A stretch of 38,188 bases of DNA. It comes from Omnitrophica bacterium GWA2_41_15 (GTDB lineage Bacteria; Omnitrophota; Gorgyraeia; Gygaellales; Profunditerraquicolaceae). The notes beneath the pieces are model-generated. The model ran no database searches. It saw only the letters and a list, made by a program, of their open reading frames with translations, and was not told where the DNA came from. Of this stretch, positions 9,597 to 37,990 are shown piece after piece (position 1 is the stretch's first letter; the number at the start of each line of letters is the position of its first letter). Both the position numbers and the translations under genes were made by a program. The stretch covers positions 7,871 through 46,058 of the forward strand of contig CAKKQB010000012.1 of assembly GCA_919901915.1 (NCBI GenBank), in the 5' to 3' direction.

Positions 9597-9625
9597 AATC
9601 AGAACATCGAGCGTATAGCAAAATG

Positions 9626-9788: not shown

Positions 9789-10516
9789 AGCGTAGAGGGC
9801 GTGATAAACTATCCGCTATCCGCTATCCACTATCCGCTAGAATACTTTTTTTCTTGATATTTGCATTTTACGCTTTGAGTTATTCTTGTTACGCTGCTCC
9901 TTCTTACGGTACAAAGATGCCTTTAGAAAAGCAATTTTTTGCCGGATTTCAGCAGCATTCTATTTTTAAAAGATACTTGGAACATGAAGCGGGTAAGATG
10001 CGTAGTTTTCAAGAGCTTGTGCTTGTTTCATACGGAGTTTCTGACTGGTTTTCAATAGATTTAAAAGGCGCTTTCGGAAACATAGAACAGCAGTCTGATA
10101 ATGGCGATAAGCTTAAGTATCAGGCGTTTCTTGGCGGAGGATACGGATTTCGCTTTAAATTTTATGATAAGGAAAAAGTAAAAATGGTTTTTGGTTTTCA
10201 GCATATCAGTATTCATCCGGACTCTAAATTTAGAGATAACGTAAAGCATAAAGGAGTTTTGGATGATTGGCAGTTTTGCGCGTTAGCTTCCCGCGATTTT
10301 AAAAAGTTTGTTCCTTATCTAGGCGCGCGTTGGTCTAGATGCGATTACATTCATTGGGAAGATAAAGAGCGCGACAGGATAAAATCAGATGAAACAAAAT
10401 GTGTTGGCCTAATTTTAGGCCTCGATATTCCTTTGGCAGAGAAACTTTGGATTAACCTTGAAGGCAGTGTCTTTGATAATGAAGCGGCTGCTGTCAGCTT
10501 AAACTTTGTTTTCTAG
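9758..10516 (+). CDS. outer-membrane beta-barrel protein; start region built from repeats
   Basis: The mature part after residue about 50 reads as alternating beta strands (VLVSYGVSDWFSIDLKGAFGN, FLGGGYGFRFKFYD, VPYLGARWSRCDYIHW) and ends AAAVSLNFVF. A terminal Phe is the usual barrel assembly signal. A signal peptide RILFFLIFAFYALSYSCYA ends at an S-C-Y-A cleavage-like site. The frame is open from 9569, but upstream it only translates repeats. ATG at 9758 lies inside the right arm of the palindromic element, and the next 28 codons run through heptamer repeats (KLSAIRYPLSAR). TTG at 9854 is another candidate. No clear ribosome binding site exists, so the native start may have been replaced. 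The function is unknown: an unclassified barrel of about 200 residues. Confidence 0.65.
   Translation: MTKNGVIQQPQRRGRDKLSAIRYPLSARILFFLIFAFYALSYSCYAAPSYGTKMPLEKQFFAGFQQHSIFKRYLEHEAGKMRSFQELVLVSYGVSDWFSIDLKGAFGNIEQQSDNGDKLKYQAFLGGGYGFRFKFYDKEKVKMVFGFQHISIHPDSKFRDNVKHKGVLDDWQFCALASRDFKKFVPYLGARWSRCDYIHWEDKERDRIKSDETKCVGLILGLDIPLAEKLWINLEGSVFDNEAAAVSLNFVF
9809..9839 (+). repeat. heptanucleotide tandem repeat (CTATCCG)n, copy 1
   Basis: Four adjoining units, CTATCCG, CTATCCG, CTATCCA and CTATCCG, are followed by CTAG. The same heptamer occurs in pyrK at 16330-16350 and 16411-16440. Here it is translated as LSAIRYPLSA at the start of the beta-barrel precursor. Confidence 0.85.
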
Positions 10517-19913: not shown

Positions 19914-20537
19914 ATGGCAGAGAATATCCAGGCATTAATTGAAAAAATAAATCAGGAGGGTGTGCAGGCAGCTGAAGAAAAAGCCAAAGAAATTGAGTTT
20001 AAGGCAAGGCAAAAAGCAGAAGAAATTATAGAAAAGGCAAGGCTTGAGGCGCAAAGGATGCAACTTGATGCCCAAGAGAAAATTTCAAAGATGCGGGAAA
20101 GAGAGAAAACGCTCATTACCCAGGCTGGCCGCGACCTTTTATTAGAATTAAGGGAAAAAATAAACGCGATGCTAATTTTGCTGATTGAAAAGGAGGCGCA
20201 TGCAAGCCTTAGCGCGGAAAATATGTTTAAGATTTTAACCAATATTATCCAGAATACCTGTAAGCAGGAAAAATCAGAGATAACTATCGTTTTAAATAAA
20301 GATGACCTGTATGCCTTGGAAGCGGATTTTTTGGTAAAATTAAAAGAAGAAGTAAAAAAAGAAATAATTTTAAAACCCTCAGAGGTTATTCATGGAGGTT
20401 TTATCATTAGTTTTGACGCGGGAAAATCGCAATTTGATTTTAGCGATAATGGGCTTGCTGAGTATATCGGCACATTTTTAAAGCCAAGGTTAAGAGAAAT
20501 TTTACAGCCCTTCACAAAATACGTTCAGGGCTGTTGA
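19914..20537 (+). CDS. atpE: V-type ATPase subunit E
   Basis: The 207-residue peripheral-stalk subunit has an N-terminal coiled coil (IQALIEKINQEGVQAAEEKAKEIEFKAR, residues about 4-75) and a C-terminal alpha/beta head (EVIHGGFIISFDAGKSQFDFSDNGLAEYIGTFLKPRLREIL). This is the pattern of NtpE/AtpE. It ties the A3B3 head to subunit I. AAGGAG sits at about 19901, upstream of the ATG. It is the first gene of an E-DUF2764-A-B-D-I-K operon. No gene for the usual stalk partner G/H is visible. Confidence 0.88.
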   Translation: MAENIQALIEKINQEGVQAAEEKAKEIEFKARQKAEEIIEKARLEAQRMQLDAQEKISKMREREKTLITQAGRDLLLELREKINAMLILLIEKEAHASLSAENMFKILTNIIQNTCKQEKSEITIVLNKDDLYALEADFLVKLKEEVKKEIILKPSEVIHGGFIISFDAGKSQFDFSDNGLAEYIGTFLKPRLREILQPFTKYVQGC

Positions 20538-20599
20538 TTACAGTGATTTTAAAAAGATTACAGCGATTTTTCGTTGAGATTTAATGCGCTCAGATTTCT

Positions 20600-20725
20600 C
20601 GTCGTTTCACTCCTCGAAATGACAAGGTTTAACTTTATGATATGCGTTAATGTTACCCCCAGACTGTCATTTCGATCGAATGGAAAACCGCTAACATCTC
20701 AGACTGTCATTTCGATCGAAGGGAG
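20600..20725. repeat. palindromic and direct repeats between V-ATPase E and DUF2764 genes
   Basis: CAGACTGTCATTTCGATCGA is present twice as a direct repeat, near 20662 and near 20700. An inverted partner TCGAAATGACA lies near 20616. These are the same GTCATTTCGA-type arms found in many dispersed bacterial palindromes, here partly decayed. The 219-base gap has no other content. Confidence 0.7.
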
Positions 20726-20756
20726 AAATCTTAAACTTGTTTTGTGAAGATTTAAC

Positions 20757-21281
20757 ATGCCTAAATATTACGAATATCTTATTTCAAGCCTGCCTATGCT
20801 TCATTTTGAAGCACAGCCGCCGTTTTCTTTTGAAAGTTTTTTAATAAGATGCGCTGAGCTTATTTCGCAAAAAGATATGCAAACACTACAAGGCGTTTCT
20901 TTACTTGAGCCATCTTCGACAGAAAACTATTTGATAAGAAAATGGATAGATTTTGATATCGCTCTTAGGAATGAATTAGTTAAGGTTAGGGCAGTTTATA
21001 AAAAAGTTGATCCCGCTAAATATCTGCGTTCTGAAGGTTACGCTTCCGCGTCAATATATCATATTGCTATCGCGGCGCATAGAAACCCTTCTGTGCTTGG
21101 AGGGGAAATGTTTCTTGACCGTCAAAGATGGAATTTTTTGGATGAATTGGCTATCGGGCATTATTTTGATCTGGATTTTTTGATTGTCTATGCCTTGAAA
21201 ATGGGGATTCTTGAACGCTGGAAAAGAATCCATACCGCGGACAAAGAACTTCTTTTAGAATCTACTTTGACCGCTTCGTAG
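20757..21281 (+). CDS. DUF2764 protein of the V-ATPase operon (C-subunit-like)
   Basis: The 174-residue protein begins MPKYYEYLISSLPMLHFEAQPPFSF, the DUF2764 opening. It is helical throughout (LIRKWIDFDIALRNELVKVRAVYKK, FLDELAIGHYFDLDFLIVYALKMGILERW). DUF2764 genes sit between E and A in chlamydial, spirochaetal and Bacteroidetes V-ATPase operons, where a C (AtpC/d) gene would be. By position it probably serves as the central-stalk-to-ring adaptor. This is inference from context; the sequence does not obviously align with classical C subunits. Confidence 0.8.
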   Translation: MPKYYEYLISSLPMLHFEAQPPFSFESFLIRCAELISQKDMQTLQGVSLLEPSSTENYLIRKWIDFDIALRNELVKVRAVYKKVDPAKYLRSEGYASASIYHIAIAAHRNPSVLGGEMFLDRQRWNFLDELAIGHYFDLDFLIVYALKMGILERWKRIHTADKELLLESTLTAS

Positions 21282-21311
21282 GCGGACAGGGTAATTTATG
21301 AATAGGATAAT

Positions 21312-23039
21312 ATGGCTGAAAAGAGAAAAGGTTTTATTACAAAGATAAACAGTAATATGGTTACCGCGAGTTTTGACGCCTTTGTTATTCAGAATGAGGT
21401 TGCGTATATACTTCATGGTGAAGAGCGTCTTAAGGCAGAGGTAATTCGCGTACGCGCTAATACCGTGGAAATGCAGGTTTTTGAGAGCACGACAGGGCTA
21501 AGGGTTGGGGATGAAGTGGAGTTTACTGAAGAGCTTCTTTCTGTTGAGCTTGGACCGGGGCTCCTGGGCCAGATTTTTGATGGCTTGCAAAATCCACTTC
21601 CGCAGTTAGCTGAAAAATGCGGTTTCTTTTTGAAAAGAGGGGTTTATTTAAATGCTCTCGCGGAAGATAAAGAATGGGAATTTAATCCTTTAGTTAAGAC
21701 AGGAGATAAAATCCGGCCGGGAGAAAGAATCGGTTTTGTTCCGGAGAAAATATTCAGGCATTATATAATGACGCCATTCGCGCCACAGGGTATTTCAGAG
21801 ATAATAAAGATAAGCAGCGCCGGAAAATATACTTTGAAACAACCTGTTGCCCGTATTAAGAATCAAGACGGAAATGAAAGTGATGTTTTTATGTCTCAAA
21901 TCTGGCCGGTAAAAATTCCTATCCAGGCATATTCGGAAAAATTAAAACCATTCCAGCCATTGGTAACCAAGATGCGGCTTATAGATTCTCTTTTTCCCGT
22001 TGCTCTTGGCGGCACATACTGCGTTCCTGGGCCATTTGGCGCGGGAAAAACTGTTTTGCAGCAATTAACCTCAAGGCACGCGCAGGTGGACGTGGTAATC
22101 ATTGCTGCTTGCGGGGAGAGGGCAGGCGAGGTCGTTGAGACATTAAAGACTTTTCCGGAATTAATTGACCCGCGCACAAATAGGCCATTGATTGACCGCA
22201 CAGTAATTATTTGCAACACAAGTTCCATGCCTGTAGCGGCAAGGGAATCAAGTGTTTATACCGCGGTAACTATTGCCGAATATTACCGGCAGATGGGATT
22301 AAGTGTTTTGCTTTTGGCAGATTCTACGTCTAGATGGGCGCAGGCAATGCGCGAGATGTCCGGCAGGCTCGAGGAAATTCCTGGAGAAGAAGCGTTTCCC
22401 GCTTATTTGGAATCGCGTATCGCGTCATTTTATGAGCGTTCGGGCGTGGTGAGATTATATGACGGCAGTATCGGCTCGATTACAATAGGCGGGGCAATAA
22501 GCCCCGCTGGCGGAAATTTTGAAGAACCGGTAACGCAGGCAACGTTAAAAGTCGTAGGCGCTTTTCATGGTTTATCGCGCGAACGTTCCGATGCCAGAAG
22601 GTATCCGGCGATAGACCCGCTTATTAGCTGGAGTAAATATAAGAGTTTCATTGACGAAAAGCAGGAGGAGAGGGGCCATGAAATACTGCGCAAAAGCCAC
22701 GAGGTAGCGCAGATGATGAAGGTTATCGGTGAAGAAGGTATATCGCTTGCCGATTACAACAATTATCTTAAGGGTGAGTTTTTTGATTTTGTTTATTTAC
22801 AGCAGGACGCCTTTGATATAGTGGATGAGGCCACTACGGAAGAACGGCAGAAATATGTTTTTAATTTTATATACAATATTTTAGAAATTGATTTTTCTTT
22901 CGCGGGTAAAGAAGAGGCGCTGCATTTTTTTCAGGCGTTGCGGCAGTTTTTTCGTGGCTGGAATTCTTGCGCCTGGAATAGCGAAGAGTTTAAAAAGGCT
23001 GAAAATGAAATATTATTATTGTTACATCCTGTTAAGTAA
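21312..23039 (+). CDS. atpA: V-type ATPase catalytic subunit A
   Basis: This 575-residue catalytic subunit has the Walker A motif GPFGAGKT at residues 240-247, the Glu-bearing AACGERAGEVVETL, VLLLADSTSRWAQAMREMSGRLEEIPGEEAFPAYL (Walker B and substrate contacts), and the A-specific bulge (non-homologous region) at about residues 115-200. The length fits the short bacterial A type. It hydrolyses or makes ATP in alternation with B. Its ribosome binding site (AGGA about 8 bases upstream) is weak compared with that of K. Confidence 0.96.
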   Translation: MAEKRKGFITKINSNMVTASFDAFVIQNEVAYILHGEERLKAEVIRVRANTVEMQVFESTTGLRVGDEVEFTEELLSVELGPGLLGQIFDGLQNPLPQLAEKCGFFLKRGVYLNALAEDKEWEFNPLVKTGDKIRPGERIGFVPEKIFRHYIMTPFAPQGISEIIKISSAGKYTLKQPVARIKNQDGNESDVFMSQIWPVKIPIQAYSEKLKPFQPLVTKMRLIDSLFPVALGGTYCVPGPFGAGKTVLQQLTSRHAQVDVVIIAACGERAGEVVETLKTFPELIDPRTNRPLIDRTVIICNTSSMPVAARESSVYTAVTIAEYYRQMGLSVLLLADSTSRWAQAMREMSGRLEEIPGEEAFPAYLESRIASFYERSGVVRLYDGSIGSITIGGAISPAGGNFEEPVTQATLKVVGAFHGLSRERSDARRYPAIDPLISWSKYKSFIDEKQEERGHEILRKSHEVAQMMKVIGEEGISLADYNNYLKGEFFDFVYLQQDAFDIVDEATTEERQKYVFNFIYNILEIDFSFAGKEEALHFFQALRQFFRGWNSCAWNSEEFKKAENEILLLLHPVK

Positions 23040-23059
23040 AGGATACCGGGAAAAGATAA

Positions 23060-24355
23060 ATGCAGAAGACTTATACTAATATTATTCATATCGCGGGAGA
23101 TGTTATTACGGTTGAAGCTACGGGTATAGGATACTCGGAGATTGCGCAGGTTGTATTCAGGAGAGGTATATCATTAGCGCAGGTTATTCGTATTGACGGA
23201 AAAAAAGTATCTTTGCAAATTTTTGCAGGCAGTAAGGGGGTTTCCACTGGAGACAAGGTAAGGTTTTTAGGGCATTCGATGCGTACTTCAAGCGGAGAAA
23301 ATCTCCTGGGCCGCATCTTTAACGGGAGCGGCCTTCCTTTAGATAAGGGTCCGGAACTTTTTGACAATATGATTGATATCGCGGTTCCTTCAGTTAATCC
23401 TGCCAAAAGAATAATTCCGCGCAAAATGATTCATACCGGATTGCCGATGATAGACGTTTTCAATTCACTTGTTGAATCGCAGAAACTGCCGATTTTTTCA
23501 ATCGCCGGTGAACCTTATAATGAACTTATGGCGCGCCTCGCGATTCAGGCAAAGGTTGATATTATTATTTTAGGCGGCATAGGCCTGAAATATGATGATT
23601 ATCTTTTTTTTAGGGATACACTTGAAGAGCATGGAGCCCTTTCGCGTTCTGTTTTGTTTATTCATACCGCCTCTGACCCTGTTGTTGAATGTTTACTCGT
23701 GCCTGACATAAGCCTGGCAGTTGCCGAGCAATTTGCGCTTGGGGGTAAACGTGTCTTAGTGTTATTGACAGATATGACTAATTTTTGCGACGCCTTGAAG
23801 GAGATTTCTATTACTATGGAACAGGTCCCTTCAAATCGCGGTTACCCCGGAGATCTTTACAGCCAATTAGCCAGCCGTTACGAAAAAGCGGTAGATTTTC
23901 AAGGCGCAGGGTCCATTACAATTTTATCCGCGACTACTATGCCCGGAGATGATGTTACCCATCCTGTGCCGGATAATACCGGTTATATTACTGAAGGACA
24001 ATTTTATTTGAAAAATGGCGTGATTGAGCCGTTTGGTTCTTTAAGCCGTTTAAAACAGCAGGTAAATGGAAATACCCGCGATGATCATCGCGCTATTATG
24101 AATACTATGATTCAGTTGTTTGCCAGTTATCGCGAGACGCTGGAAAAACAGGCAATGGGTTTTCAGATGAGCGTTTGGGACAAGAAATTACTTTGTTACG
24201 GTAAGCTTTTTGAGGCTAAAATGATGTCTTTGAAAGTGAATATCCCGCTTGAGAAAGCGCTGGATCAAGGCTGGGAAATTCTGGCAGAGTGTTTTAGCCC
24301 CGAAGAGACGGGAATTAAGAAAGATATAATTGAAAAGTATTGGCCGAAAAATTAA
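23060..24355 (+). CDS. atpB: V-type ATPase regulatory subunit B
   Basis: The 431-residue non-catalytic head subunit has [46 protein letters not shown], the B-type [13 protein letters not shown] in place of a P-loop, [16 protein letters not shown], and the [16 protein letters not shown] and [24 protein letters not shown] blocks. It pairs with A to form the A3B3 ring. It starts 20 bases after the A gene, with GGGAAAAG as a modest ribosome binding site. Confidence 0.96.
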
Positions 24356-24370
24356 GCGGATAGTAAGATG

Positions 24371-24434
24371 AGCGTAGAGCGCATAGGACGTGGTGAACTA
24401 AGCGCTACCCGCTATACGCTCTACGCTATACGCT
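24371..24434 (+). repeat. heptamer repeats between atpB and atpD
   Basis: AGCGTAG at 24371 is followed by the opposite-strand form of the same heptamer: CTACCCG, CTATACG, CTCTACG and CTATACG from 24405 to 24432. The array is interrupted at 24435 by the nested palindromic element. It resumes as ACGCTCT, ACGCTTT and ACGCTAA at 24565-24585, right before the D start. Confidence 0.8.
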
Positions 24435-24564
24435 GGGACTGTTGCGAAATGCCATTTTTCGTCATTCCGGCGAAAGCCGGAATCCAGAACTCTTTGATTT
24501 CAATAGGCTTATGGATACCGGCTTTCGCCGGTATGACGATTTTAATGTATTTCGCAATAGTCCC
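24435..24564. mobile_element. nested palindromic element (MITE-like), copy 3
   Basis: The outer arms are GGGACTGTTGCGAAAT (24435-24450) and ATTTCGCAATAGTCCC (24549-24564), matching in 15 of 16 positions. The inner arms are GTCATTCCGGCGAAAGCCGG..CCGGCTTTCGCCGGTATGAC. ACGCT flanks both sides, the reverse complement of the AGCGT that flanks copy 1, consistent with a 5-bp target duplication at the same target. It lies between atpB and atpD. Confidence 0.82.
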
Positions 24565-24587
24565 ACGCTCTACGCTTTACGCTAAGA

Positions 24588-25205
24588 ATGGGACAGGTAA
24601 AACTAACTAAAGGGGAATTAAAAAGACAGCGCGACTGCCTAAGGCAATATGAGAGATACTTGCCCACTTTGCAGCTTAAAAAACAGCAGTTACAAATGGA
24701 AATTCTTTGGCAGGTAACGTTGCTTTCCGAAAAAAAACACATTCTTAATAAGAAAAAAGAAGCGGTATTGGTCTGGGGAGGTCTTTTAGCTGAACCGGTG
24801 ATAAATCTAAAGGGTTGGCTTGTTCCCTCGAATATTGTAACCACAGTAAAAAATATCGCCGGGATAGAACTGCCGGTTTTTGAACGCGTGGATTTTCTTG
24901 AGGCGGAATACGATTTATTTGAAACAGCCCCTTGGGTGGATTTTGCTATTGAAGCATTAAGGCAGGTTGTTTCTTCGCGAAAAGAAGTTGAGGCGCTAGA
25001 AGAAGGGATTGGGATTCTAAAATACGAATTGCGTATTACTACGCAGAGGGTAAATCTCTTTGAAAAAATAAAAATTCCGGAAGCGCAAAAAACAATACAC
25101 CTGATTAAAATTTATATTGGCGATCAGATGGCTAATGCTGTAGGCCGTAGTAAAATAGCGAAAAGGAAGATAGAAGAAGGGGTTCTTGAAGGGGCGGGTG
25201 TATGA
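24588..25205 (+). CDS. atpD: V-type ATPase subunit D (rotor shaft)
   Basis: The 205-residue central rotor shaft has the family N-terminus MGQVKLTKGELKRQRDCLRQYERYLPTLQLKKQQLQ and a matching C-terminal helix (QRVNLFEKIKIPEAQKTIHLIKIYIGDQMANAVGRSKIAKRKIE), the two long coiled-coil arms that insert into A3B3. No Shine-Dalgarno sequence precedes the ATG; the upstream bases are heptamer repeat. Translation may therefore be weak, which suits a subunit needed once per three A and B. It overlaps atpI by ATGA. Confidence 0.92.
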   Translation: MGQVKLTKGELKRQRDCLRQYERYLPTLQLKKQQLQMEILWQVTLLSEKKHILNKKKEAVLVWGGLLAEPVINLKGWLVPSNIVTTVKNIAGIELPVFERVDFLEAEYDLFETAPWVDFAIEALRQVVSSRKEVEALEEGIGILKYELRITTQRVNLFEKIKIPEAQKTIHLIKIYIGDQMANAVGRSKIAKRKIEEGVLEGAGV

Positions 25206-26974
25206 TTGTAAGGATGAAAAAAATCGCGTTGATTACGCAGGCTAAAGACGCGCAAGATGCTCTTAAGTCTTTGCGCTCTCTTGGTGTTGTGCATGTAGAG
25301 CATAGCCAGTTACCCAAAAATAAAGATATTAATCTTATTCAGGATGATTTGTCCTTGATTAATCAGGCGCTGGATGTTATTTTGAAAGCAGAGTTTAGCG
25401 TTGGCCGCGAAGGAACTCTTTGTCGTAAGGATGTTACTGATTGGAAGGCTGCCGCGAGGCATATTATTGATACTTGGAAGAGGATTGATCATCTGCAGGA
25501 ATTTTCTAAACAGTTAAATTCAGAAATTAAGGAGTGGGGACCATGGGGAGATTTTGACCCTAATGAAGTCCGGAAATTAGCTCAGAAAAATATTTATTTG
25601 AGGTTGTTTCAGGTTCCGGCGAAAGAAATGAAGAATTTTCCTCTTGCCGCGCGGGTAAGTAAGATATTTACTAAAGGCAATGTTGTCTATTGCGCTGTTT
25701 TTTCGCGTGAAAAATTTGAGTGCGCCTTTAAGGAGATAGGTTTACCTAAGATGAGCCTATCACAAATGCGAGGGCGTATTGCCGAGGATTGGCGTATTAT
25801 AGAATCTCTTAATGATGATTTGAGGAGTTTTTTTAGTTACCGGACAAGCCTTTTTCAGATAAAGAAATCATTGGAAAAAGAACTTGGGTTTCAAGAGGCG
25901 TTAGGAGGGATGGCGCAATCCAAAACCCTTACTTATTTATGCGGATTTGCTCCATTTGACAGTGAAACAATGCTGGTAAGTCTTGCCAAGAAAGAGAGAT
26001 GGGGGCTTTTTATTACTGATCCCGGCGAAGATGAACTAGTGCCGACCCTAATTCGCAATCCCGGATGGGTTTCTATTATTACTCCGGTTTTTAAACTCTT
26101 AGAAATAGTTCCCGGATACCGGGAATTAGATGTAAGTATGCTATTTCTTATATTTTTTAGTTTATTTTTTGGGATTCTTATAGGTGACGCGGGATATGGC
26201 ACAACCTATTTATTAATTACTTTTCTGGCACATAAAAAATTATGTAAAAAATACCCAAATAATAAAGTTTTTTTTCTCTTTTATATTTTAAGTTTTTGCG
26301 CTATTATATGGGGAGCATTGACTGGTTCTTTTTTTGGTCAGGAATGGCTGGTAAAAGCAGGAATTAAGCCGCTTATGCCCAGCCTAAATAATACTAAAAA
26401 TATTCAGGCTTTTTGTTTTTTTCTGGGGGCGCTGCATTTAAGCATTGCTCATTCATGGAGGGTAATTTTAAAACTTCCTTCATTAACGGCTTTAGCGGAT
26501 ATCGGCTGGGTACTTATACTTTGGGCGGCATTCTTTTTCGCGAAGCTACTTATTTTATCGCAAGGTCTGCCTTTTTACGCTACTTGGCTTCTTATCGCCG
26601 GGATGATTTTGGTTGTATTCTTTACTAATCCGCGGAAGAATATTTTAAAGGCTGTGGGTGAAGGCTTAGGCGCGTTAGCTTTAAGCTTGATGAATAATTT
26701 TACTGACGTGGTTTCTTATGTTCGTCTTTTTGCTGTGGGGCTAGCCGGCGTAGCTATCGCGGATACTTTTAATAGTATGGCTTTTAGTGTAGGAACTGGG
26801 AGTGTTTTGGCAATAATAGCCAGCGGTTTTATTATTATAGCTGGGCATAGCTTAAATTTAATATTAGGTCCGATGTCGGTTTTGGTGCACGGAGTCAGGC
26901 TTAATGTCCTTGAGTTTTCCGGGCATGCTAATGTTACATGGAGTGGGGTTGCTTATAAACCGTTCAAAGAATAA
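25202..26974 (+). CDS. atpI: V-type ATPase membrane stator subunit I (a)
   Basis: This 590-residue subunit forms the ion half-channels. The N-terminal 300 residues are cytoplasmic, with the ferredoxin-like opening MIVRMKKIALITQAKDAQDALKSLRSLGVVHVEHS. Membrane helices follow from about residue 310 (MLFLIFFSLFFGILIGDAGYG, VFFLFYILSFCAIIWGALTGSFFG and so on, about 7-8 helices). The essential Arg is in the conserved MNNFTDVVSYVRLFAVGLAG helix. The C-terminus FSGHANVTWSGVAYKPF matches the family. An alternative start at 25214 (MKKIALI) is equally plausible. Confidence 0.94.
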   Translation: MIVRMKKIALITQAKDAQDALKSLRSLGVVHVEHSQLPKNKDINLIQDDLSLINQALDVILKAEFSVGREGTLCRKDVTDWKAAARHIIDTWKRIDHLQEFSKQLNSEIKEWGPWGDFDPNEVRKLAQKNIYLRLFQVPAKEMKNFPLAARVSKIFTKGNVVYCAVFSREKFECAFKEIGLPKMSLSQMRGRIAEDWRIIESLNDDLRSFFSYRTSLFQIKKSLEKELGFQEALGGMAQSKTLTYLCGFAPFDSETMLVSLAKKERWGLFITDPGEDELVPTLIRNPGWVSIITPVFKLLEIVPGYRELDVSMLFLIFFSLFFGILIGDAGYGTTYLLITFLAHKKLCKKYPNNKVFFLFYILSFCAIIWGALTGSFFGQEWLVKAGIKPLMPSLNNTKNIQAFCFFLGALHLSIAHSWRVILKLPSLTALADIGWVLILWAAFFFAKLLILSQGLPFYATWLLIAGMILVVFFTNPRKNILKAVGEGLGALALSLMNNFTDVVSYVRLFAVGLAGVAIADTFNSMAFSVGTGSVLAIIASGFIIIAGHSLNLILGPMSVLVHGVRLNVLEFSGHANVTWSGVAYKPFKE

Positions 26975-27026
26975 TTTGTATTTAAGGAGAAAAATATTTT
27001 AAGTTTTAAGCTCTAAGGAGGATGAT

Positions 27027-27485
27027 ATGGAGACGGGGGTTTTAACGCAGTTTAAGGATTTGGGCGCGATTATGGTTATGGCTTTTTCAGCAGTAGGCTC
27101 GGGTTGGGGCGCGGGTATTGCCGGAATGGCCGCGATTGGGGCGTGGAAGAAAAATTTTTCCCAGAATAAGCCCGCTTCTTTTATGTTAGTGGCTTTTGTA
27201 GGCGCTCCTTTAACTCAGACGGTTTATGGGATGATTGTAATGAATAAGATGTTTGAGATTGCTTCTAAGGGGCAATATCTTTGGGGAATAGGCGCGTTTG
27301 CTGGTTTAGCCATAGGCCTTTCCGCTCTTTGGCAGGGAAAATGCGCGGCTTGCGCCTGCGATGCTATGGGGGAAACTGGCAAAGGATTTGGGAATTATAT
27401 CGTGATTTTAGGTATTACTGAAACAGTAGCTTTATTTGTGATGGCCTTTACTCTCGGGCTTTTAGGAAAATTAGCGACGGGTTAA
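27027..27485 (+). CDS. atpK: V-type ATPase ring subunit K (Na+-type proteolipid)
   Basis: This is a 152-residue, four-helix duplicated proteolipid. Helix 2 has PLTQTVYG (L62, T63, Q64), helix 3 has WQGK (Q103) and helix 4 has ITET (E132). Together these match the Leu, Thr, Gln, Gln and Glu ligands of the Na+-binding site known from Enterococcus hirae NtpK. The ring probably carries Na+, one carboxylate per four helices. An excellent AAGGAGG sits 6 bases before the ATG, the strongest site in the operon, which fits the need for many copies. It is the last gene of the operon. Confidence 0.93.
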   Translation: METGVLTQFKDLGAIMVMAFSAVGSGWGAGIAGMAAIGAWKKNFSQNKPASFMLVAFVGAPLTQTVYGMIVMNKMFEIASKGQYLWGIGAFAGLAIGLSALWQGKCAACACDAMGETGKGFGNYIVILGITETVALFVMAFTLGLLGKLATG

Positions 27486-28817: not shown

Positions 28818-29234
28818 CTATGCTACTTCTTTGCCCGTTGTTGACATACTCAATGTTGTATGCCTCACGCCTTTGACTGCCTTTAGCATATCGGCTAATT
28901 TACTCACTTCTATAGGATTTCCTTTGACCGCGATTATTTCCAAGCAATTGTGGTGATCCAGATGTATATGTTGAGCCGAGAGAATAGCTTTTTGAAAATC
29001 ATGCTGGGTATCCGTGATTTTATTAAGCAGTTCTCTTTTATGATGATCATAAATGAGGGTAACGGCTCCGGCTACTTCATGCCCTTCATGCCATTCTTGA
29101 TCTACCAAATCTTGCCGAATTAAATCACGAATAGCTTCAGAGCGGTTTGAGTAACCTTTTTTCTTAAGGCGGGCATTAAACCTTCGAGATAAATCGCCGT
29201 CTAACGATATTCCAAACCTAATTATTTTAGACAC
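28818..29234 (-). CDS. nikR: nickel-responsive regulator NikR
   Basis: This 138-residue ribbon-helix-helix/ACT protein has the N-terminal RHH domain IIRFGISLDGDLSRRFNARLKKKGYSNRSEAIRDLI. In the C-terminal domain H78, H89, H91 and C97 have the same spacing as the H76, H87, H89 and C95 nickel ligands of Escherichia coli NikR (TQHD, AQHIHLDHHNCLEIIAVKG). The site is complete, so nickel sensing is expected. The start is GTG at 29234 with AGGAG four bases upstream. Targets are probably the two small membrane genes downstream on the same strand; no NikABCDE or NikMNQO transporter is present in the window. Confidence 0.93.
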   Translation of the reverse strand: MSKIIRFGISLDGDLSRRFNARLKKKGYSNRSEAIRDLIRQDLVDQEWHEGHEVAGAVTLIYDHHKRELLNKITDTQHDFQKAILSAQHIHLDHHNCLEIIAVKGNPIEVSKLADMLKAVKGVRHTTLSMSTTGKEVA

Positions 29235-29911: not shown

Positions 29912-30529
29912 ATTACAAGACGCTTTCCATGCTAATCGGGACAGTGTCCCTTGACTGTGCTGGAAGGTGTCTTATGCCCACAGGGCCACGTTTACTTATC
30001 ACAAATGCTTGCTATCACATTATCACACGGGGTAACCAAAGACAACAAATTTTCTGGGAGAAGGTAGATTACAATGTATACTTCTCAAAACTAAAAAAGC
30101 ATAAAAGACGGTATGGATTTTTATTTTATGGCTTCTGCTTTATGCCAAATCATATCCATATAATAGGCGAACCAAAAGAATCTAAAAATCTAGCTAAATT
30201 TATGCAAGGTCTTAATCGTGCTTATACTGCTTACTTTAATAAACGCTACCAGAAAGCTGGTCATCTCTGACAAGACAGATTTAAGAGTAAAATTATAGTC
30301 AAAGACAACTACCTTATAGATTGCATTCACTATGTTGAGCTGAATCCAGTAAGAGCAAATATGGTAAAAACAGCCCCTGACTATGAATACTCAAGTTGCA
30401 GAGAAAGAATACTTTCTTTAGGTGAAACCGGTAAGTTGCTTGATGCATTTCAACTTTAGACTCAAAAAGGATACTTTCTATCTTAGAGGGGGTACACTGT
30501 CCCGATTGGATGGGAAAGCGTCTGTTAAT
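29912..30529 (+). mobile_element. REP-associated (RAYT-type) transposase element with inverted ends
   Basis: Inverted arms of about 36 bases lie at 29912-29947 and 30494-30529. The inner 13 bases (ATCGGGACAGTGT / ACACTGTCCCGAT) are identical, and the outer part (GACGCTTTCC / GGAAAGCGTC) is mostly so. The arms enclose a Y1 transposase pseudogene on the plus strand. The right end coincides with the point where the neighbouring helix-turn-helix gene loses homology to its family, so the element disrupted that gene. Small GGGACAGTGTCCC-bounded single-gene elements of this type are common. Confidence 0.78.
29974..30459 (+). pseudogene. Y1 (HUH) transposase, RAYT family, nonsense-mutated
   Basis: The frame starting MPTGPRLLITNACYHIITRGNQRQQIF carries the HUH motif in FMPNHIHII and the catalytic-Tyr helix LNRAYTAYFNKRYQKAGHL. 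A TGA at 30268-30270 (codon 99) stands exactly where relatives have Trp in GHLWQDRFKS. The frame then continues QDRFKSKIIVKDNYLIDCIHYVELNPVRANMV to a TAG at 30457. A single TGG to TGA change explains it. Such single-strand transposases process REP-like hairpins. This copy is probably inactive unless the stop is read through. Confidence 0.88.
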
Positions 30530-30796: not shown

Positions 30797-33700
30797 CTAC
30801 CGAATACTGCTGACCTGCATAGTGTCTTCTGCTTTTTTAGTCCCCATCAACATCGGCAAATTGGTAGGGATGATTTGAAGAATTACTGGGGAGAATCCAT
30901 CGATTTGAATAGTCTGAATTGTTTGCAGATTAACGGGAACATTAAAATCGATTCCTTGCCCCTGTTTTTCTATGCTTAACATGTTTGGATTAAAATCAAT
31001 ACCGCCGAGATTTTCTGCTGTCTTGGCAGGAGAAGAAACTGAACCCTTATCTTGTCCTTGATTAATAACGCTATCTAACTGATCGGCTTGAACAAAATCC
31101 TTCTGCGCTTCATCAGTTACCAACGGGCTAGAGCTTCCGCGATCAAATAAAGCCTGACCTGTGGCAAAGAAACGCATAATGTTTAACAATTCATTTGGCA
31201 TCGCAATATGATTTTTTTCGAGAATATGGAAAAACCATAATAATTTTTGTCCAACACTAGTCTTTGATTCCAATACCTGATCGGTTAGTTCCGTTCGAAT
31301 GTTGCCGGTCAATATTCCGCCGAGCTGTTCAACGATACCTTCCAAGACATCTTTTTGACCATCCCGAACAGCTACCATCAATTTCCCCAGCAACCGGCGA
31401 TTATTCTTGCTAAGTTCAAAAGAAGCACCCGCATCAATTAAAACAATACGAACCCGTCCATCCTCGCCCTTCTGCACAAGAATATTTCCCAAATGAGGAT
31501 CCCCGTGGTAAAAACCTTCGTAAAAAATCTCTCGCAGTAATTCATTAGCTACAGCCAATTCAATATCCTTCTGATCAAGCCCAGCCTCATTTACGCGTCT
31601 TTCACTCGAAAGTTTAATGCCCTCTATATACTCCATAACGATTGCCGAATTATTGATAACTTTAATTATTTGCGGGACATAAAATTCATAATCTCCCTGT
31701 GCCTCTCCTAATCTAGTGTCGCCAAATAATTTCTTTAGGGAAAACTCCTTGATCTTCTTCAATACGGTTCGTTGAACCCGGGAACCCAATTCAGCGGTGT
31801 TCTTTGCTTCCTGTTCAAAATTCAATTCCGACCTAAACCCTTTTTCTATCTGTGCGACAAAGTTGTCGGGGATAACAATTCCCTCGGCCATAAAAGCTGA
31901 CCGCAAGTCATCATCGAAAACATCCTTAAAAAATTTCATATCTGCTTCAATCGTTTTATCTACTTCGGGTCGTTTAATCTTAATGGCTACTATCTTACCG
32001 TCTCGCATCTTGGCGCGATAAACACCGGCAATTTTTGCGCTTCCCAAAGGCTCTTCAATACTCTCAAATTCTTCTGTTAGTCCGAATTTTTCCAACATAT
32101 CAAAGACTACGCCTTTATCCATCCGGCGAGCACTGTCTTGAACCAAAGATAATTCATCTCGCATAAGCGGCCTCACCCACAAAGAACGAGCAAGCACCTG
32201 AGCAAGCTGACGTCCAACCAACCCAAGAGATTCCAAGAAAAGACGCACTGCCCGCGCCTCTTGCCTTTCCGCTGTAACGCCCTGTTGACCAGCTTGCATT
32301 TCGCCACGCTGTAACGACAATGTCCAAACCAACGCTAAAAAGATTTCCTCGCGACGAGTTTGATCAGCTTTCTCAAAAACTTTGTCAAAAACCTTTTTAA
32401 GAACGCTTTTATTAGGGCCGTCTTTGATCAAATAATCAAACATTCCACCCAGTAAATTTGACATGGCAATCGGATCGTTAAAGACACCTTTTTCACCGTA
32501 CAGGAACGGCTCCAGAGCCTCCCGTTGTGATGATTGTCCGGCTAGAGGATAATATTTACTCTGTCTCCGACCAAAGTCTTCACGCATATTATCAGCGTTA
32601 ACATGGAAGTTATACTCGAAATCAACAAGGAAAAATGGTTTCTCATCTGTGATACCCATAAGCCAGAGAAGAAAATGTGTCTTTTCCTCAGGGCTACGAT
32701 TCTTTGTCCATGCACGAAATGCGTCGGCATTCATTGCCGTGCGCGCAGTTTCTTTGAGATCCAAATCTTTAGCTTTTTTAAAAGGATCGAGGTAAAGCGC
32801 CCTGACTTGTTCATATTGCTCGCGTGTCTTAGTCAAGAATTGCGCTGTTTCTGAAAGAACGTCGTCCCTAATCAATGAGGCTTCCGGGAAAAATCTTTGA
32901 ATTAGTTGAAGCACGTCGCCAAGTGTTCCGAACTCCTCAGGATGTTCTGTGCGATATTGATCTAATGCACCCAATGCCAAATTATCCCGCAAATTACGAT
33001 TGTGAACCATCGTAAGCAGTTTCTCAATCTCCTCAACAGTCCTACCTCGACTCTCCGAATGAATTGCCGCTTTGATCCACTTATCCCTCGCCAATGATGA
33101 TTGTGGGTAATATTTCTCAATAAATTCTCTTTTAGAAGCTAAAGGTAGCACTGAAAAACCAATAATATTTCTTATTTCCTCCTCGGCTAAACGGCTAATA
33201 AACACATATAGTTGCGCAACAGGGCCCCCTGGAACAGAATACATCATTTCATCATAATCGCCGTTTTCCTGACTATGCTCTTGGCGAATAGCAGTCTCAT
33301 CTAATCTGGGAGCATTTTTGGCATATCGTTCCTTCCAATAAGCTGCCACCGTCGCTTCATTAGATTTCTCCATTACCTCGTCATGAACAAAATGTGGTGC
33401 GATGACCGCTATTGCCGACATGATACTTGCTCTTTCAGCTGCCGACATCCCTGCAAGATGCGCCTGTATTCTTTTAAAATCAAAAATCGCATTATTATCG
33501 CTAGTATATCCGGCCTGATTTAACGCCCGTCTAACAAAAAGAACATAGAGGACAAAATTACGAAATATGGACGGCGGAATTCCCCTTACTACCGTATCCA
33601 CTGCATCTTCATAATTTACAGGAAGCAACGTAATAAAGTCAAATAATTGCATAAAATCATCAAAAGCGATATTTTCCCGCATAAAACGGACAGCATTTCT

Positions 33701-36700
33701 GGGACGTAGTTTCTCGGCTTGTTCGGCATATTCAGCTTCTTCAGAAACTCCCTTTCGAGCAATATCCCCAGCAAATACATGCCAGGCACTACTTCCAAAT
33801 CTAACATCATCTTCTTTAAGTCTTATATTATAGCCAAGCTCGACGAGCAGTGTCTGAAAATAAATCGGCGCCACATATTGTCCAAAAACCTCTTCCTGCT
33901 GTTCCGGAGTTGAATCTTCTTCGGATAACAACCGCCCTATTTGATAACGATAATGTTCAAGAAGCGACTTAATTAAACCAAACTCATCATTATTAACATT
34001 TTCAATTCTCCGCTTAGGATTAATTTGATCCCAGCGGTCATGAATACTGTTCCTGTCCTCATAAGATAAAGCATTGTACCGTTCTGATATATCCTCCTCG
34101 TCATAAACTTCGCGTTCAGGCTTAGCGTTTTTGATAAGCGCAATGATTTCCGGATTAGAAAGCATACTCCCTTGTCTTTCCCTAACGCGCAATGCGCCAA
34201 AAATAAAATCTCTCAAATCTTTGCCTTCTGGGATTCCATCCAAAGCAATAATATAAAAAATCGGCTTTAATTCACGCCGACTCTTTTCAACTAAAGGCCT
34301 CAATTCCACCGGAATGCTCTCTAATAAAGTATTTTCAAAGGCATCACCCACAAACATTGTTGAGTTTTGACGGGACATCAACCAAAGATCACAAAAAATA
34401 CCCAAATCATTGTTAATATGTTGTCGCCTAAATTCGGCGAATATTTTCTGATGCATAATAGCCATGTCTTCAAAAGGAACCTTATTGGATTCTTTATGAG
34501 CAGCTGCAACAAATGCCTTTAACACATTTTGCATATTCCGAACAATATTCTTATTGGACAATAACTTTTCAAGATATTCCACCTTGCTCCCATGGAAAAC
34601 AATTCCCTGACCATCCTTGGATGCTGTTTCAATATCGAGCTTGAGGAACTCGGCTCTCAATGAATTCCACCCGTCATCGCGAAGAAGAAGCCAATCCATA
34701 AGCTCCTTTTTTGCATCCAGTGGGACATCTCGCGCAAGTTCATACAAACTTTTTGCGAGTCCGTCTGCCTTTAGCGCATAATTAATTTTTGTACCTAAAA
34801 TCTCATAAACTCTGAGTAAAAGTTTGATGTCTTCCGGTCGCATCTGACCTCGATAAACCTTTGATGAGCTAAAGGCATCGGCCATGTCCTTTAATGGCTG
34901 GGAGAATAAATATTCTTCAAAATAGCCCTGTGAGTCCTGCATATTGACTAAATCGACGAGAAATCTTCGAGCTCGCTCCAGACTTAATGCCCCCTGTTTG
35001 GCATCGTTAATCATTCTTGTACACAGTCCGCACAAAAAACCGCTTGCATACATTTTGAATCGATCGCTTGGACGAGATCGACCATTTAATGAGTATACGG
35101 CAGAGCGAAGCCGCTGAATAACACCTTCAGCTTGTTTATATCGTTCGTTTTTCTGTAGCTTATCAACGTCAAGCGATAAAGAGAAAATATTTGGAACACC
35201 CAGCTCATAAATACGGAGAATTGTTTCAACCGATAATTGTGCGCCTAATCGTCGAAAAGTATCCAAATTAGGTTCTGCGATAAATCCCAGCATTGTATAA
35301 ACTTCATTCTTCATGTATTCAAACAAAACCCTCTTGGCTTCGTCTTCGCCAACAAGCTGGCTTATTCGTTGTTCAAACGTCATTTGAATTTGGCTCTGTG
35401 TTTGTTTTTCCCCATCTGGCAAAACCTCAAACCCAATTAGCATTGCAAAATGTAATTCCTCAATAGATTTCGCCTCATTCAACAAAGAAATAAGGTCTAC
35501 CGCAGTTGTGACGTTAACGACTCGATCCTGAAATTCTCTGAACCGCGTTCTTTGTTGAGAATTTGAGACCGCATTAAACACAGAAGGCGGAACATCTTGG
35601 TTTTGCCAATGATAGGTCAGGATCTGATGCTCCAACTTTCGTAAACGCTCCTCTATCTGGGGATGAGTACCCCAGGTAGCATCTCGGTCTCCGCGTGCCG
35701 TCAACCAATGATCCATACCTGTAAGGATATGCGGAGCTGTCCTCACTGAAAAACCTCCGCGATCCATCAACCACAACGCCAACAAGTCACTTTGATACTC
35801 CTTCCCTCTATCTTCCGCATGCCGGTCGACCAATCCCTTCTTTTCATCAACACGCCCCTCATCAATTTCCCTGCGATTCTGTACAATATGTAAGATTTCA
35901 TGCGACAACACCCAAGCCAATGCATCTTGTGTTACGTCGATGTTATTGGCTTTGGCATATTCTGCCAACATGCGAATCAATCCTAAATTGACGACGATAG
36001 CATTGTAATAATTTACAACGTAGGCATTCGGGTCAACAGTATCAGCGAGGAAAAGTTGAAACTCATTTGGATTCAGTCCTTTAGCAATTAATAAACGATC
36101 GATAATGTCGCGCACCTCATCATATAGCGGTTGCAGTTGTTCAAAGCCTTCTCTTCCGGGGGTAATAAAACGATCAACGATATCTTGTTTTTTTAAAAAC
36201 TTTTCTTTACGCTCAACATCGCGATTATATTCGTTCTGGGATTTTAAAGGTACTCCCGGAATGGTTTTCCCAATTTTTTTTCTATCTGATGCAGGAACTC
36301 TACGGATACTGGGACCGATAATATCTTTTCTTGCTACTTCGTATTGTTTTTGGGCGCCTTCTTGATCGATTTGTTGATCTCCACCTCGTAATTTTTGACG
36401 CGCATTATTATGGGCAACAATCCAATGATTTCCTGCTTTGCGTTCTTTCACTTCCTCACGTTCAAGATCAAGTTGCTGATCGATATCACTCTCAAAACCA
36501 ACAATCTTCCAGATGCCATCCGTCCCTTTAAAATTAATAGCCCTTACACCGCCTCGGGGCTCCATAACCCATCGCTGGACGGCTCTGCCTATTTCAGATT
36601 CCTTGACCTCATCCTTGATGACAAAAACTTTTACATCTGTGGAATCGTCTCTAACCTCTTTTATCAGACCTTGAGCCTGTAAATGATTTAACACAAACTC

Positions 36701-37990
36701 CAAAATAACATCTTCCGAAGCGCCTTCCGGTACCTGAGGAACTTTATCGCTCTGCGCTAAAACATTCAGAATCCGACGCAAACGATCCAAATTCTTAACC
36801 GGGTCCAAAACCGCGGAAACCGTTTGTAATTTTCCATCTGTTGTCTTAGTAACTTTTGCTTCTGTTTCCTGTGTTGTCCTTTGCTCTACCGAGAGTGCTT
36901 TATCAACTGCCTTAGCTGTGAATTCCATCCCGCCGGAGAAATATTTTCGGGGGATTATCCTCTGGGTTACAGGATCGTAATCTTCCTTGATATAGTTGTA
37001 GACACCTTTTTTAAAGGTCTCCAAATACTGCTTGTAAATTTTTTCTTTGACCCGCTTATCTGCTACATCGACCCCGGAAATTTTGTTTTCTCCCACATAA
37101 ATCTTGCTCAATAAATTTTCTTTTAAATTGCGCTTAAACCAAGTGGCGAGGATCATTGAATTATAAACTTGGCGCAAGGATACAAAGATATTCCCGGTAT
37201 TAACTTCTTTTTCAATCTCCGGAAGAATCACCTCTTTAATAATGTCCGAGGAAACATCATTAATCTGCTGAACGTCCTCTTGCTTTAATTTTTTGACTTT
37301 TATTTCCCCCATATTTTCTTTAATGGCAAGATAATCGCTTTCGAGCATGACTTTTAAATGAGTGGACACAATAAAAGCTGTATCGCCGCTTTCATACACA
37401 ACCGCTTTATCCGGAACGATCCAAACTTTGTTAAAAGTATTGACTGGCAGGCGTGTTGTGCCGTAAAGCTGGTGAACCTTTGCGTAAACTTTGTCCCAAA
37501 ACTTCTTGCCCAAATCTTTTTCCGGATAAATCAAAGAAGCGGTCAGTTGCTTGAGAACATAATCTTGCGCTAAAAGATCGCGCCCCATTTCCGTCTGACC
37601 AAATTGATCGGCTATGATTCTGTCCTTTTCATAAGGAGACAGGTTTACCCAAAGGTCATCTTCGGGAATCGTTAAAGTAGCCAAAAAATACTTGATTAGT
37701 TTCGCGGATTCTGTTTTGAGGGCATTATCCGCCAGCTTAGACTGTCCTGTGTCAATAATGAAATCAAACCGTAACGGATTATCCGGGAAGATTTTTATCC
37801 CCTTCATTACAGGCGGGATAAAACTTGGGGTCGGAGTGGCTATAACGCCCGATGCAGGTAAATTGAGCGCATTTTGGGCGTAGGCTCTGGACGGCAAAAC
37901 TATTGAGTTTGATAAAAAAGACAGGATAGTAAAAAATGCGCCTATCCTAAAAAGTAGCCTATCTTGTTTTTTTCTAAATGGTTGAGACAA
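30797..37990 (-). CDS. giant secreted-type protein: M48-like metalloprotease plus UbiB/ABC1 kinase domain
   Basis: The protein is 2,397 residues. A signal peptide (residues about 10-39, ending AYA before QNALN) is followed by an unrecognised N-terminal region to about 360. The protease-like domain has H697-E698-x2-H701 in LSHEILHIVQ, third ligand E731 with D735 in EYQSD, and the M48-style tail THPQIEERLRKLE. Residues about 850-1900 are helical and unassigned. A UbiB/ABC1 kinase follows: loop GSAKIAGVYRA (1983-1993), Lys2004 in VAIKIKRP, ELNFEQEAKN, H2162-GDPHLGN and D2186-A-G in place of DFG. The family's KxGQ motif appears as QLAQ (1928-1931). A TTG start is set by AGGAGG at 37995-38000. The function is unknown; a signal peptide on an ATP-dependent fold is contradictory. 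Confidence 0.8.
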   Translation of the reverse strand: MSQPFRKKQDRLLFRIGAFFTILSFLSNSIVLPSRAYAQNALNLPASGVIATPTPSFIPPVMKGIKIFPDNPLRFDFIIDTGQSKLADNALKTESAKLIKYFLATLTIPEDDLWVNLSPYEKDRIIADQFGQTEMGRDLLAQDYVLKQLTASLIYPEKDLGKKFWDKVYAKVHQLYGTTRLPVNTFNKVWIVPDKAVVYESGDTAFIVSTHLKVMLESDYLAIKENMGEIKVKKLKQEDVQQINDVSSDIIKEVILPEIEKEVNTGNIFVSLRQVYNSMILATWFKRNLKENLLSKIYVGENKISGVDVADKRVKEKIYKQYLETFKKGVYNYIKEDYDPVTQRIIPRKYFSGGMEFTAKAVDKALSVEQRTTQETEAKVTKTTDGKLQTVSAVLDPVKNLDRLRRILNVLAQSDKVPQVPEGASEDVILEFVLNHLQAQGLIKEVRDDSTDVKVFVIKDEVKESEIGRAVQRWVMEPRGGVRAINFKGTDGIWKIVGFESDIDQQLDLEREEVKERKAGNHWIVAHNNARQKLRGGDQQIDQEGAQKQYEVARKDIIGPSIRRVPASDRKKIGKTIPGVPLKSQNEYNRDVERKEKFLKKQDIVDRFITPGREGFEQLQPLYDEVRDIIDRLLIAKGLNPNEFQLFLADTVDPNAYVVNYYNAIVVNLGLIRMLAEYAKANNIDVTQDALAWVLSHEILHIVQNRREIDEGRVDEKKGLVDRHAEDRGKEYQSDLLALWLMDRGGFSVRTAPHILTGMDHWLTARGDRDATWGTHPQIEERLRKLEHQILTYHWQNQDVPPSVFNAVSNSQQRTRFREFQDRVVNVTTAVDLISLLNEAKSIEELHFAMLIGFEVLPDGEKQTQSQIQMTFEQRISQLVGEDEAKRVLFEYMKNEVYTMLGFIAEPNLDTFRRLGAQLSVETILRIYELGVPNIFSLSLDVDKLQKNERYKQAEGVIQRLRSAVYSLNGRSRPSDRFKMYASGFLCGLCTRMINDAKQGALSLERARRFLVDLVNMQDSQGYFEEYLFSQPLKDMADAFSSSKVYRGQMRPEDIKLLLRVYEILGTKINYALKADGLAKSLYELARDVPLDAKKELMDWLLLRDDGWNSLRAEFLKLDIETASKDGQGIVFHGSKVEYLEKLLSNKNIVRNMQNVLKAFVAAAHKESNKVPFEDMAIMHQKIFAEFRRQHINNDLGIFCDLWLMSRQNSTMFVGDAFENTLLESIPVELRPLVEKSRRELKPIFYIIALDGIPEGKDLRDFIFGALRVRERQGSMLSNPEIIALIKNAKPEREVYDEEDISERYNALSYEDRNSIHDRWDQINPKRRIENVNNDEFGLIKSLLEHYRYQIGRLLSEEDSTPEQQEEVFGQYVAPIYFQTLLVELGYNIRLKEDDVRFGSSAWHVFAGDIARKGVSEEAEYAEQAEKLRPRNAVRFMRENIAFDDFMQLFDFITLLPVNYEDAVDTVVRGIPPSIFRNFVLYVLFVRRALNQAGYTSDNNAIFDFKRIQAHLAGMSAAERASIMSAIAVIAPHFVHDEVMEKSNEATVAAYWKERYAKNAPRLDETAIRQEHSQENGDYDEMMYSVPGGPVAQLYVFISRLAEEEIRNIIGFSVLPLASKREFIEKYYPQSSLARDKWIKAAIHSESRGRTVEEIEKLLTMVHNRNLRDNLALGALDQYRTEHPEEFGTLGDVLQLIQRFFPEASLIRDDVLSETAQFLTKTREQYEQVRALYLDPFKKAKDLDLKETARTAMNADAFRAWTKNRSPEEKTHFLLWLMGITDEKPFFLVDFEYNFHVNADNMREDFGRRQSKYYPLAGQSSQREALEPFLYGEKGVFNDPIAMSNLLGGMFDYLIKDGPNKSVLKKVFDKVFEKADQTRREEIFLALVWTLSLQRGEMQAGQQGVTAERQEARAVRLFLESLGLVGRQLAQVLARSLWVRPLMRDELSLVQDSARRMDKGVVFDMLEKFGLTEEFESIEEPLGSAKIAGVYRAKMRDGKIVAIKIKRPEVDKTIEADMKFFKDVFDDDLRSAFMAEGIVIPDNFVAQIEKGFRSELNFEQEAKNTAELGSRVQRTVLKKIKEFSLKKLFGDTRLGEAQGDYEFYVPQIIKVINNSAIVMEYIEGIKLSSERRVNEAGLDQKDIELAVANELLREIFYEGFYHGDPHLGNILVQKGEDGRVRIVLIDAGASFELSKNNRRLLGKLMVAVRDGQKDVLEGIVEQLGGILTGNIRTELTDQVLESKTSVGQKLLWFFHILEKNHIAMPNELLNIMRFFATGQALFDRGSSSPLVTDEAQKDFVQADQLDSVINQGQDKGSVSSPAKTAENLGGIDFNPNMLSIEKQGQGIDFNVPVNLQTIQTIQIDGFSPVILQIIPTNLPMLMGTKKAEDTMQVSSIR

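Follow-up and report, generated by a model that had tools for sequence, protein, structure and literature searches.

We find that a single gene of an Omnitrophota bacterium encodes a 2,397-residue protein in which a signal peptide, an M48 metallopeptidase domain and a UbiB/COQ8-like (ABC1) kinase domain share one stop-free frame, and that the same fusion recurs in related genomes. The fusion, its recurrence, the predicted export signals, two terminal tag domains, the putative catalytic residues and a depletion of cysteine are read directly from the sequences; the enzyme activity, the substrate, the source of ATP, the role of the tags and the final location of the giant are what we infer. Our best reading, to which we assign a probability of about one half, is an exported protease-kinase giant working beside an exported branch of carbon metabolism.

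Gene and domains of the giant protein

The window, by which we mean the whole stretch of 38,188 nucleotides analyzed, is the end of contig C12 in a 1.47-Mb genome (96% complete, a 66-contig metagenome assembly); all sequence compared here comes from metagenome assemblies. The coding sequence occupies 30797..37990 on the minus strand, as do all of its parts given below, with a TTG start at 37990, a GGAGG ribosome-binding site directly 5' of the TTG and a stop at 30797-30799. Composition-shuffled copies of the giant-gene stretch hold stop-free runs of at most 185 codons, against the 2,397 observed. An original prediction, made from the letters of the window, had placed a signal peptide, M48 and UbiB in this one frame; the frame, Pfam and the motifs confirm the arrangement, and every motif that it named lies at the residue it gave.

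The chain opens with a signal peptide (residues 1-38; 37877..37990; predicted cleavage site SRAYA/Q), called by a simple rule rather than by SignalP, and continues with an undescribed N-terminal family domain, the NTD (residues 39-354; 36929..37876), defined by profile searches and a structural model. A second N-terminal segment, found by profile search (residues 390-555; 36326..36823), is common to three further NTD proteins. There follow the M48 domain (residues 620-850; 35441..36133), a long middle region of about 830 residues without a family match in Pfam or our profiles (851-1683; 32942..35440), a segment termed mid3 that profile searches place directly upstream of ABC1 in relatives (1684-1888; 32327..32941), the kinase domain, supported by Pfam, Foldseek and alignment (1921-2290; 31121..32230), and an undescribed C-terminal family domain, the CTD, which reads GGIDFN... 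and was delimited by profile and C-terminal alignment (2322-2385; 30836..31027). The NTD (~315 aa) and the CTD (~65 aa) were absent from the original prediction.

The M48 identity of the peptidase domain is supported by Pfam and by the conservation of HExxH and ExxxD among relatives. As the original prediction anticipated, a profile search matched Peptidase_M48 from residue 625, at 41.4 bits against the Pfam cut-off of 20.3. Motif and alignment place the predicted zinc-binding and catalytic HEILH at residues 697-701 (35888..35902) and EYQSD, which would contain the third zinc ligand, at 731-735 (35786-35800); THPQIEERL spans residues 775-783. Both HExxH and the Glu-ligand region ExxxD are intact in every complete M48 domain aligned among the relatives. 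A PDB sequence search with the window M48 region gave no match at E<=0.01, and Foldseek with the model of this region found a weak match to BepA (probability 0.87, E=0.26). In two genomes, stand-alone M48 lipoproteins with a lipobox-like AGC or GGC lie close upstream of NTD giant genes (L110:4962-5750, L137:8420-9277), an arrangement that fits a processing or quality-control role for M48.

The profile search for ABC1 was likewise in agreement, with 145.7 bits at residues 1971-2213 (cut-off 22.9). For a model of residues 1900-2397 the best Foldseek match is COQ8A/ADCK3 (4ped, E=1e-9), so that the kinase fold expected around Lys2004 is indeed predicted; the first ~160 residues of this model are mostly at pLDDT 70-93, and later parts, including the kinase C-lobe, are of low confidence. 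By motif, the domain keeps Lys2004 (within 31967-31990), the HxDxHxxN loop as HGDPHLGN (2162-2169; 31484-31507) and the Asp of DxG within LIDAG (2184-2188; 31427-31441). This retention disfavors, at the level of sequence, the nucleotide-independent kinase module that had been raised as an option. The canonical KxGQ and Ala-rich loop are missing, and QLAQ (1928-1931; 32198-32209), a degenerate KxGQ, and GSAKIAG (1983-1989) stand in their places.

Across the giant-type kinase domains that could be read, the HxDxHxxN loop is always kept, and the beta-3 Lys is kept in most (it is Arg in L112), with DAG, DCG, DRG, DLG or DRN at the DFG position. An exact KLGQ occurs in L155, L226, L227, L229 and L237, and elsewhere the motif reads KVAQ, KIAQ, QLAQ (window) or RFLQ (L112, L191); the Ala-rich loop reads GSAS, AAAS (L155), GSAK (window) or GGGS (L112, L191). 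The original prediction that KxGQ, the Ala-rich loop and DFG are altered therefore stands for the window protein and fails as a trait of the group, since several relatives keep KLGQ. KxGQ and the Ala-rich loop are features of the UbiB/COQ8 family, and in ADCK3 the restoration of one Gly in the Ala-rich loop reversed ADP preference and allowed autophosphorylation, an effect on autophosphorylation that was stronger with the KxGQ motif removed (review, PMC4718504). Judging by their motifs, some natural giant-type kinases appear to resemble this double change of Ala-loop Gly and KxGQ loss. The natural series from KLGQ/AAAS to the degenerate QLAQ, RFLQ and GGGS bears on the purpose of the inhibitory features of UbiB/COQ8.

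The giant-type domains are set apart from ordinary UbiB in several respects. The window protein scores 145.8 bits with the UbiB equivalog TIGR01982, below its cut-off of 487.55, and a tree splits giant-type ABC1 from stand-alone UbiB of the same class with support of 100/100. Among the 58 close relatives searched we found no typical stand-alone UbiB; their few ABC1 hits sit in longer frames, bar one weak hit in a 427-aa frame. Within 246 genomes of the class, 12 hold a stand-alone UbiB and 10 only the giant form, with an overlap of 0. Two candidates were set aside: the "ABC1" hit of G026 (L193), which judging by its N-terminus is an ordinary Ser/Thr kinase-like protein outside the group, and a self-match of the ABC1 model at window residues 1133-1290, which arose in an iterated search and is not relied on.

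Read from translations, the rest of the window includes a V/A-type ATP synthase-like operon on the plus strand, opposite to the giant gene (19914-27485), and between the two a NikR-like regulator (28818-29234, minus strand) and a transposase-like fragment (29929-30270, plus strand). The ATP synthase-like genes have no obvious link to the giant gene. Dispersed repeats translated within genes (VIPAEAGI..WIPAFAGMT; DTRYEIRDTRYE) occur at about 9600-9800 of the window and at the ends of contigs C24, C10 and C31 (loci L032, L033 and L034); such repeats, located both at the ends of contigs and within some NTD genes, may be a cause of breaks in the assembly.

Recurrence, terminal tags and predicted export

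Using profiles built from the M48, mid3 (1640-1920) and ABC1 regions of the window protein, we found the order M48, conserved linker (mid3), ABC1 in about 16 giant proteins of about 12 Omnitrophota genomes, nearly all with export signals, although one or two cases may reflect overlapping contigs from different collections. All three occur in order in L111 (the same gene as L238), L134 and L155, in five different genes of genome G224 (L226, L227, L228, L229 and L231), in L233, L234, L236 and L239, and in the frameshift-split pair L232; M48 plus ABC1 are present in L112 and L191. The last of these, from G007, carries the pair in a frame of 7,604 aa that lacks a signal peptide and has an ordinary cysteine content. 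NTD and CTD are both absent from the members of G224, G271 and G381, most of which start with a signal-like N-terminus, and the M48-mid3-ABC1 module therefore does not depend on the tags. Whether related genomes share the fusion order had been posed as a check on the original prediction; they do, and this recurrence refutes the reading of the gene as an assembly chimera. The anti-phage defence models of PADLOC gave no match for the window protein. Outside preprints and most subscription papers, we found no literature on an M48-UbiB fusion or on exported glycolysis.

The genome itself has the NTD at 19 places. The domain was also found in 42 of 58 relatives and, of 237 genomes sampled from the phylum, in 69, all of the same class. 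Overall it is present in hundreds of Omnitrophota loci, and nearly every named relative of the domain comes from a metagenome-assembled genome of Candidatus Omnitrophota. Pfam gave no match to it; a model of residues 1-880, in which the NTD is partly covered by high-confidence blocks (pLDDT 85-96), gave no significant PDB match in Foldseek. The CTD (consensus GGIDLNPxLLDLQIKRDGNGxPLPxxxQxIxNMxIxGFxPVIINIxPxxNLPxLLG) lies at the extreme C-terminus in 53 of 62 complete NTD proteins, that is, those whose end falls inside a contig, and several of the 9 exceptions are broken by runs of N or truncated. Glycolytic paralogs of the same genome have a divergent GGI(N/D) tail without a significant match to the CTD model, and were not counted as CTD-positive. 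With signal peptide, NTD and CTD all present, the window protein belongs to the Omnitrophota SP-NTD-cargo-CTD family as defined here. From the positions of the two domains and the variety of cargo between them, NTD and CTD are likely to act as sorting tags. Besides the enzymes treated below, NTD cargos include WD40 propellers, SNF2, ankyrin, PP2C, protein kinase, HEAT, GH116 and a PLP-enzyme (e.g., L101:9959-21067, L103, L130). That the giant belongs to an undescribed system, for which the original prediction had named it the best candidate, is supported. The wider setting of two tags, exported glycolytic enzymes and a lack of stand-alone UbiB in the 58 close relatives searched goes beyond what a single window can show.

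Several features of the sequence argue for real export. The window N-terminus has an n-region charge of +3, a hydrophobic core and the cleavage site noted above, and no further transmembrane segment was found in the 2,397 residues. By the simple rule, signal-peptide features occur in 82 of 85 NTD proteins versus 55 of 334 control ORFs, and AxA followed by Gln in 63 of 85 versus 14 of 334. Cysteine makes up 0.10% of NTD proteins versus 1.15% of other ORFs of the same loci; the window protein contains 3 Cys (0.13% of its 2,397 residues), and the other window ORFs of at least 200 aa have 1.36%. The signal-less relative L191 stands at 1.15%, so that cysteine content appears to track predicted export. 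The charge pattern, the frequency of AxA-Gln and the cysteine depletion thus argue against the suggestion, made with the original prediction, that the signal is a membrane anchor with the C-terminus inside.

Predicted exported enzymes of carbon metabolism

The same genome encodes exported enzymes of central carbon metabolism. On contig C53 (L020:402-15568), tandem NTD genes on one strand encode a GatZ/KbaZ-like aldolase, a TIM-enolase and a PGK-PPDK; C23 (L023) holds NTD proteins with phosphoglucomutase and iPGM, and C14 (L031) one with 4-alpha-glucanotransferase. In relatives the set extends to PGI, both classes of fructose-bisphosphate aldolase, FBPase and GAPDH. A 2,026-aa protein of G015 (L184:3519-9596) joins PGK, GAPDH, TIM and enolase behind a signal peptide without an NTD match; the sequence after its signal reads LRPP and that of L187 is similar (LRPSS), which suggests a second tag type. 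No exported GAPDH was found in the window genome, so the exported set there is not a complete pathway. PFK domains were seen inside a 7,890-aa frame of this genome (G000:C17, L243-L245), beside a 9,373-aa frame with runs of N, and inside a 42,913-aa open frame of a relative (G024:C2:397105-397647).

The exported enzymes are second copies, as the genome also holds PGK, TIM, GAPDH, PFK and PPDK of normal size. They are mostly 31-51% identical to the cytosolic copies and carry insertions within the enzyme domains. For iPGM (TIGR01307), 40 relatives yielded no stand-alone form, only giant ones. Catalytic or active-site residues are kept at 69 of 77 positions in TIM, 64 of 72 in PGK and 15 of 15 in GAPDH, against 32, 27 and 6 expected from overall identity, a generous null given that catalytic residues of any homolog exceed average identity. 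This retention speaks against drift to pseudoenzymes; one TIM (L188) has lost its catalytic residues. The exported enolase of the genome retains the GAST loop and the GDEGG, SHRSGETED and KTG motifs, and the exported PPDK scores 1237 bits, above the TIGR01828 equivalog cut-off of 843. The exported PGK and TIM are almost devoid of cysteine (PGK, 0.06% vs 0.83%; TIM, 0.27% vs 1.40%), and exported GAPDH keeps its catalytic Cys and few others. For the system as a whole, export and active-site retention are supported by sequence.

Some exported copies are rearranged. The exported iPGM (L023:15751-19410) is circularly permuted, residues 642-896 corresponding to 1ejj 219-481 and 960-1151 to 22-207, and retains NSEVGH, DMVGH and TADHGN; the halves are swapped in G001, G005 and G048 as well, making four genomes in all. 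TIM in L147, L184 and L189 also appears permuted, its C-terminal half running into an NWK-type N-terminus. A PGK tree is too long-branched to tell one origin of the exported copies from several.

Proposed role and relation to known systems

In the reading we prefer, Sec would export the bifunctional giant, and cleavage behind Ala38 would take off the signal peptide; no dedicated transporter beyond Sec was identified. The two terminal domains, NTD and short CTD, would be a matched tag pair for sorting or assembly that serves dozens of different cargos, the cargo here being an M48 zinc peptidase joined through the long linker and mid3 to a UbiB/COQ8-type ATP-binding domain. Its site of action would be extracytoplasmic, either the periplasm or material derived from a partner or prey cell, and would be shared with the exported glycolytic set. 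Most likely the protein would process or maintain that set or partner-derived material, with cleavage by the peptidase and consumption of ATP by the kinase-like domain. This ATP might be supplied on site by the exported forms of PGK and PPDK, both capable of forming ATP; ATP outside the cytoplasm is an assumption of this scheme. An ATP/ADP translocase search gave no match in 58 relatives, but none in the control genomes either. The giant and exported glycolysis are linked by shared tags only, and no shared operon was seen; L191, with its M48-ABC1 pair and no signal peptide, counts against the scheme. We put at slightly less than even odds the wider proposal that these Omnitrophota have a second, working extracytoplasmic branch of central carbon metabolism, made of dedicated, cysteine-poor, sometimes permuted multi-enzyme fusions carrying both tags, with the M48-UbiB giant as its protease and ATP-dependent maintenance or control enzyme.

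The main rival is delivery into another cell. NTD proteins would then be effectors or predation factors reaching a cytoplasm where ATP, NAD and sugar phosphates exist; M48 would cut and the kinase modify host or prey proteins, and the glycolytic enzymes would redirect prey metabolism. The WD40, ankyrin, PP2C, protein kinase, SNF2 and HEAT cargos favor it, and Omnitrophota include predatory or host-dependent members, with giant ORFs proposed for cell contact in the sections of PMC10066038 drawn on here. We nonetheless judge both the delivery and these roles unlikely: our analysis identified no injection machinery, chains of 1,000-4,000 aa would have to cross into a foreign cytoplasm, and the tags resemble envelope sorting as much as delivery. 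A further step down in probability is the view that the enzyme domains are structural or binding modules of an adhesive coat, pseudoenzymes whose activity is lost: it would account for the insertions, the low identity to cytosolic copies and the L188 TIM, but sits poorly with catalytic residues kept well above overall identity in TIM, PGK and GAPDH, with the intact enolase motifs and PPDK score, and with a GAPDH that keeps little Cys besides the catalytic one.

The remaining alternatives concern the giant itself. An uncleaved N-terminal anchor, with the chain and its kinase in the cytoplasm as in E. coli UbiB, would easily explain the ATP, since UbiB and COQ8 work on whichever side of a membrane contains ATP; the positive-inside n-region, the frequent AxA-Gln, the lack of a second TM segment and the strong cysteine depletion make it very improbable. 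Still less credible is a normal quinone-biosynthesis UbiB fused by chance, which has the ABC1 fold and the COQ8A structural match in its favor and the equivalog score, the separate clade, the M48 partner and export against it. That an assembly or frameshift artefact joined separate genes, as a gene at a contig end of a 66-contig metagenome assembly might suggest, can be practically discounted given the uninterrupted frame and the same domain order in other genomes.

Both enzyme families, and large exported proteins in this phylum, are already known. Without counterpart in the libraries and papers searched are the M48-UbiB exported module, the NTD/CTD pair and the dedicated exported glycolytic copies with kept active sites, and we see the novelty in the system rather than in its individual domains. 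If the preferred reading is true, the bacterium would perform central metabolism beyond its inner membrane, for which we know of no precedent. This would raise questions about the extracellular source of ATP and sugar phosphates, about a possible metabolism of prey contents outside the predator, and about the role that the giant proteins of Omnitrophota play.

Among known systems, the M48 metallopeptidases of the BepA/LoiP/HtpX group share HExxH plus ExxxD with the window protein, and two relatives encode separate M48 lipoproteins of periplasmic type next to NTD giant genes. The window M48, in contrast, forms part of a giant soluble chain that also includes a kinase. The UbiB/COQ8/ADCK proteins share the ABC1 match, the best-matching COQ8A fold, the catalytic Lys, HxDxHxxN and the DxG Asp, and some giant-type relatives even keep KLGQ and the AAAS loop. 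The giants differ in being exported, mostly 2,000-7,800 aa long, fused to M48 and in a separate clade, and the window protein further in its QLAQ and GSAKIAG and in falling under the UbiB equivalog cut-off. T9SS substrates likewise carry a signal peptide and a conserved C-terminal domain on diverse cargos, but belong to another phylum; the window protein matched no T9SS CTD model in Pfam or NCBIfam, and we know of no T9SS counterpart to the conserved N-terminal domain. Surface moonlighting enzymes and glycosomes also place glycolytic enzymes away from the normal cytosol. Glycosomes of trypanosomes, however, are eukaryotic organelles, and a moonlighting surface enzyme has no signal peptide and comes from the very gene that gives the cytosolic enzyme, whereas the exported Omnitrophota copies each come from a dedicated second gene and show signal peptides, fusions and permutations. 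Also comparable are the giant Omnitrophota ORFs of more than 20 kb with few annotated domains (Seymour et al. 2023, PMC10066038), which share with our family the phylum, the large size of the proteins and a possible link to symbiosis or predation; the sections of that report drawn on here make no mention of an NTD/CTD pair, metabolic-enzyme cargos or an M48-ABC1 module, the features that distinguish the proteins described here.
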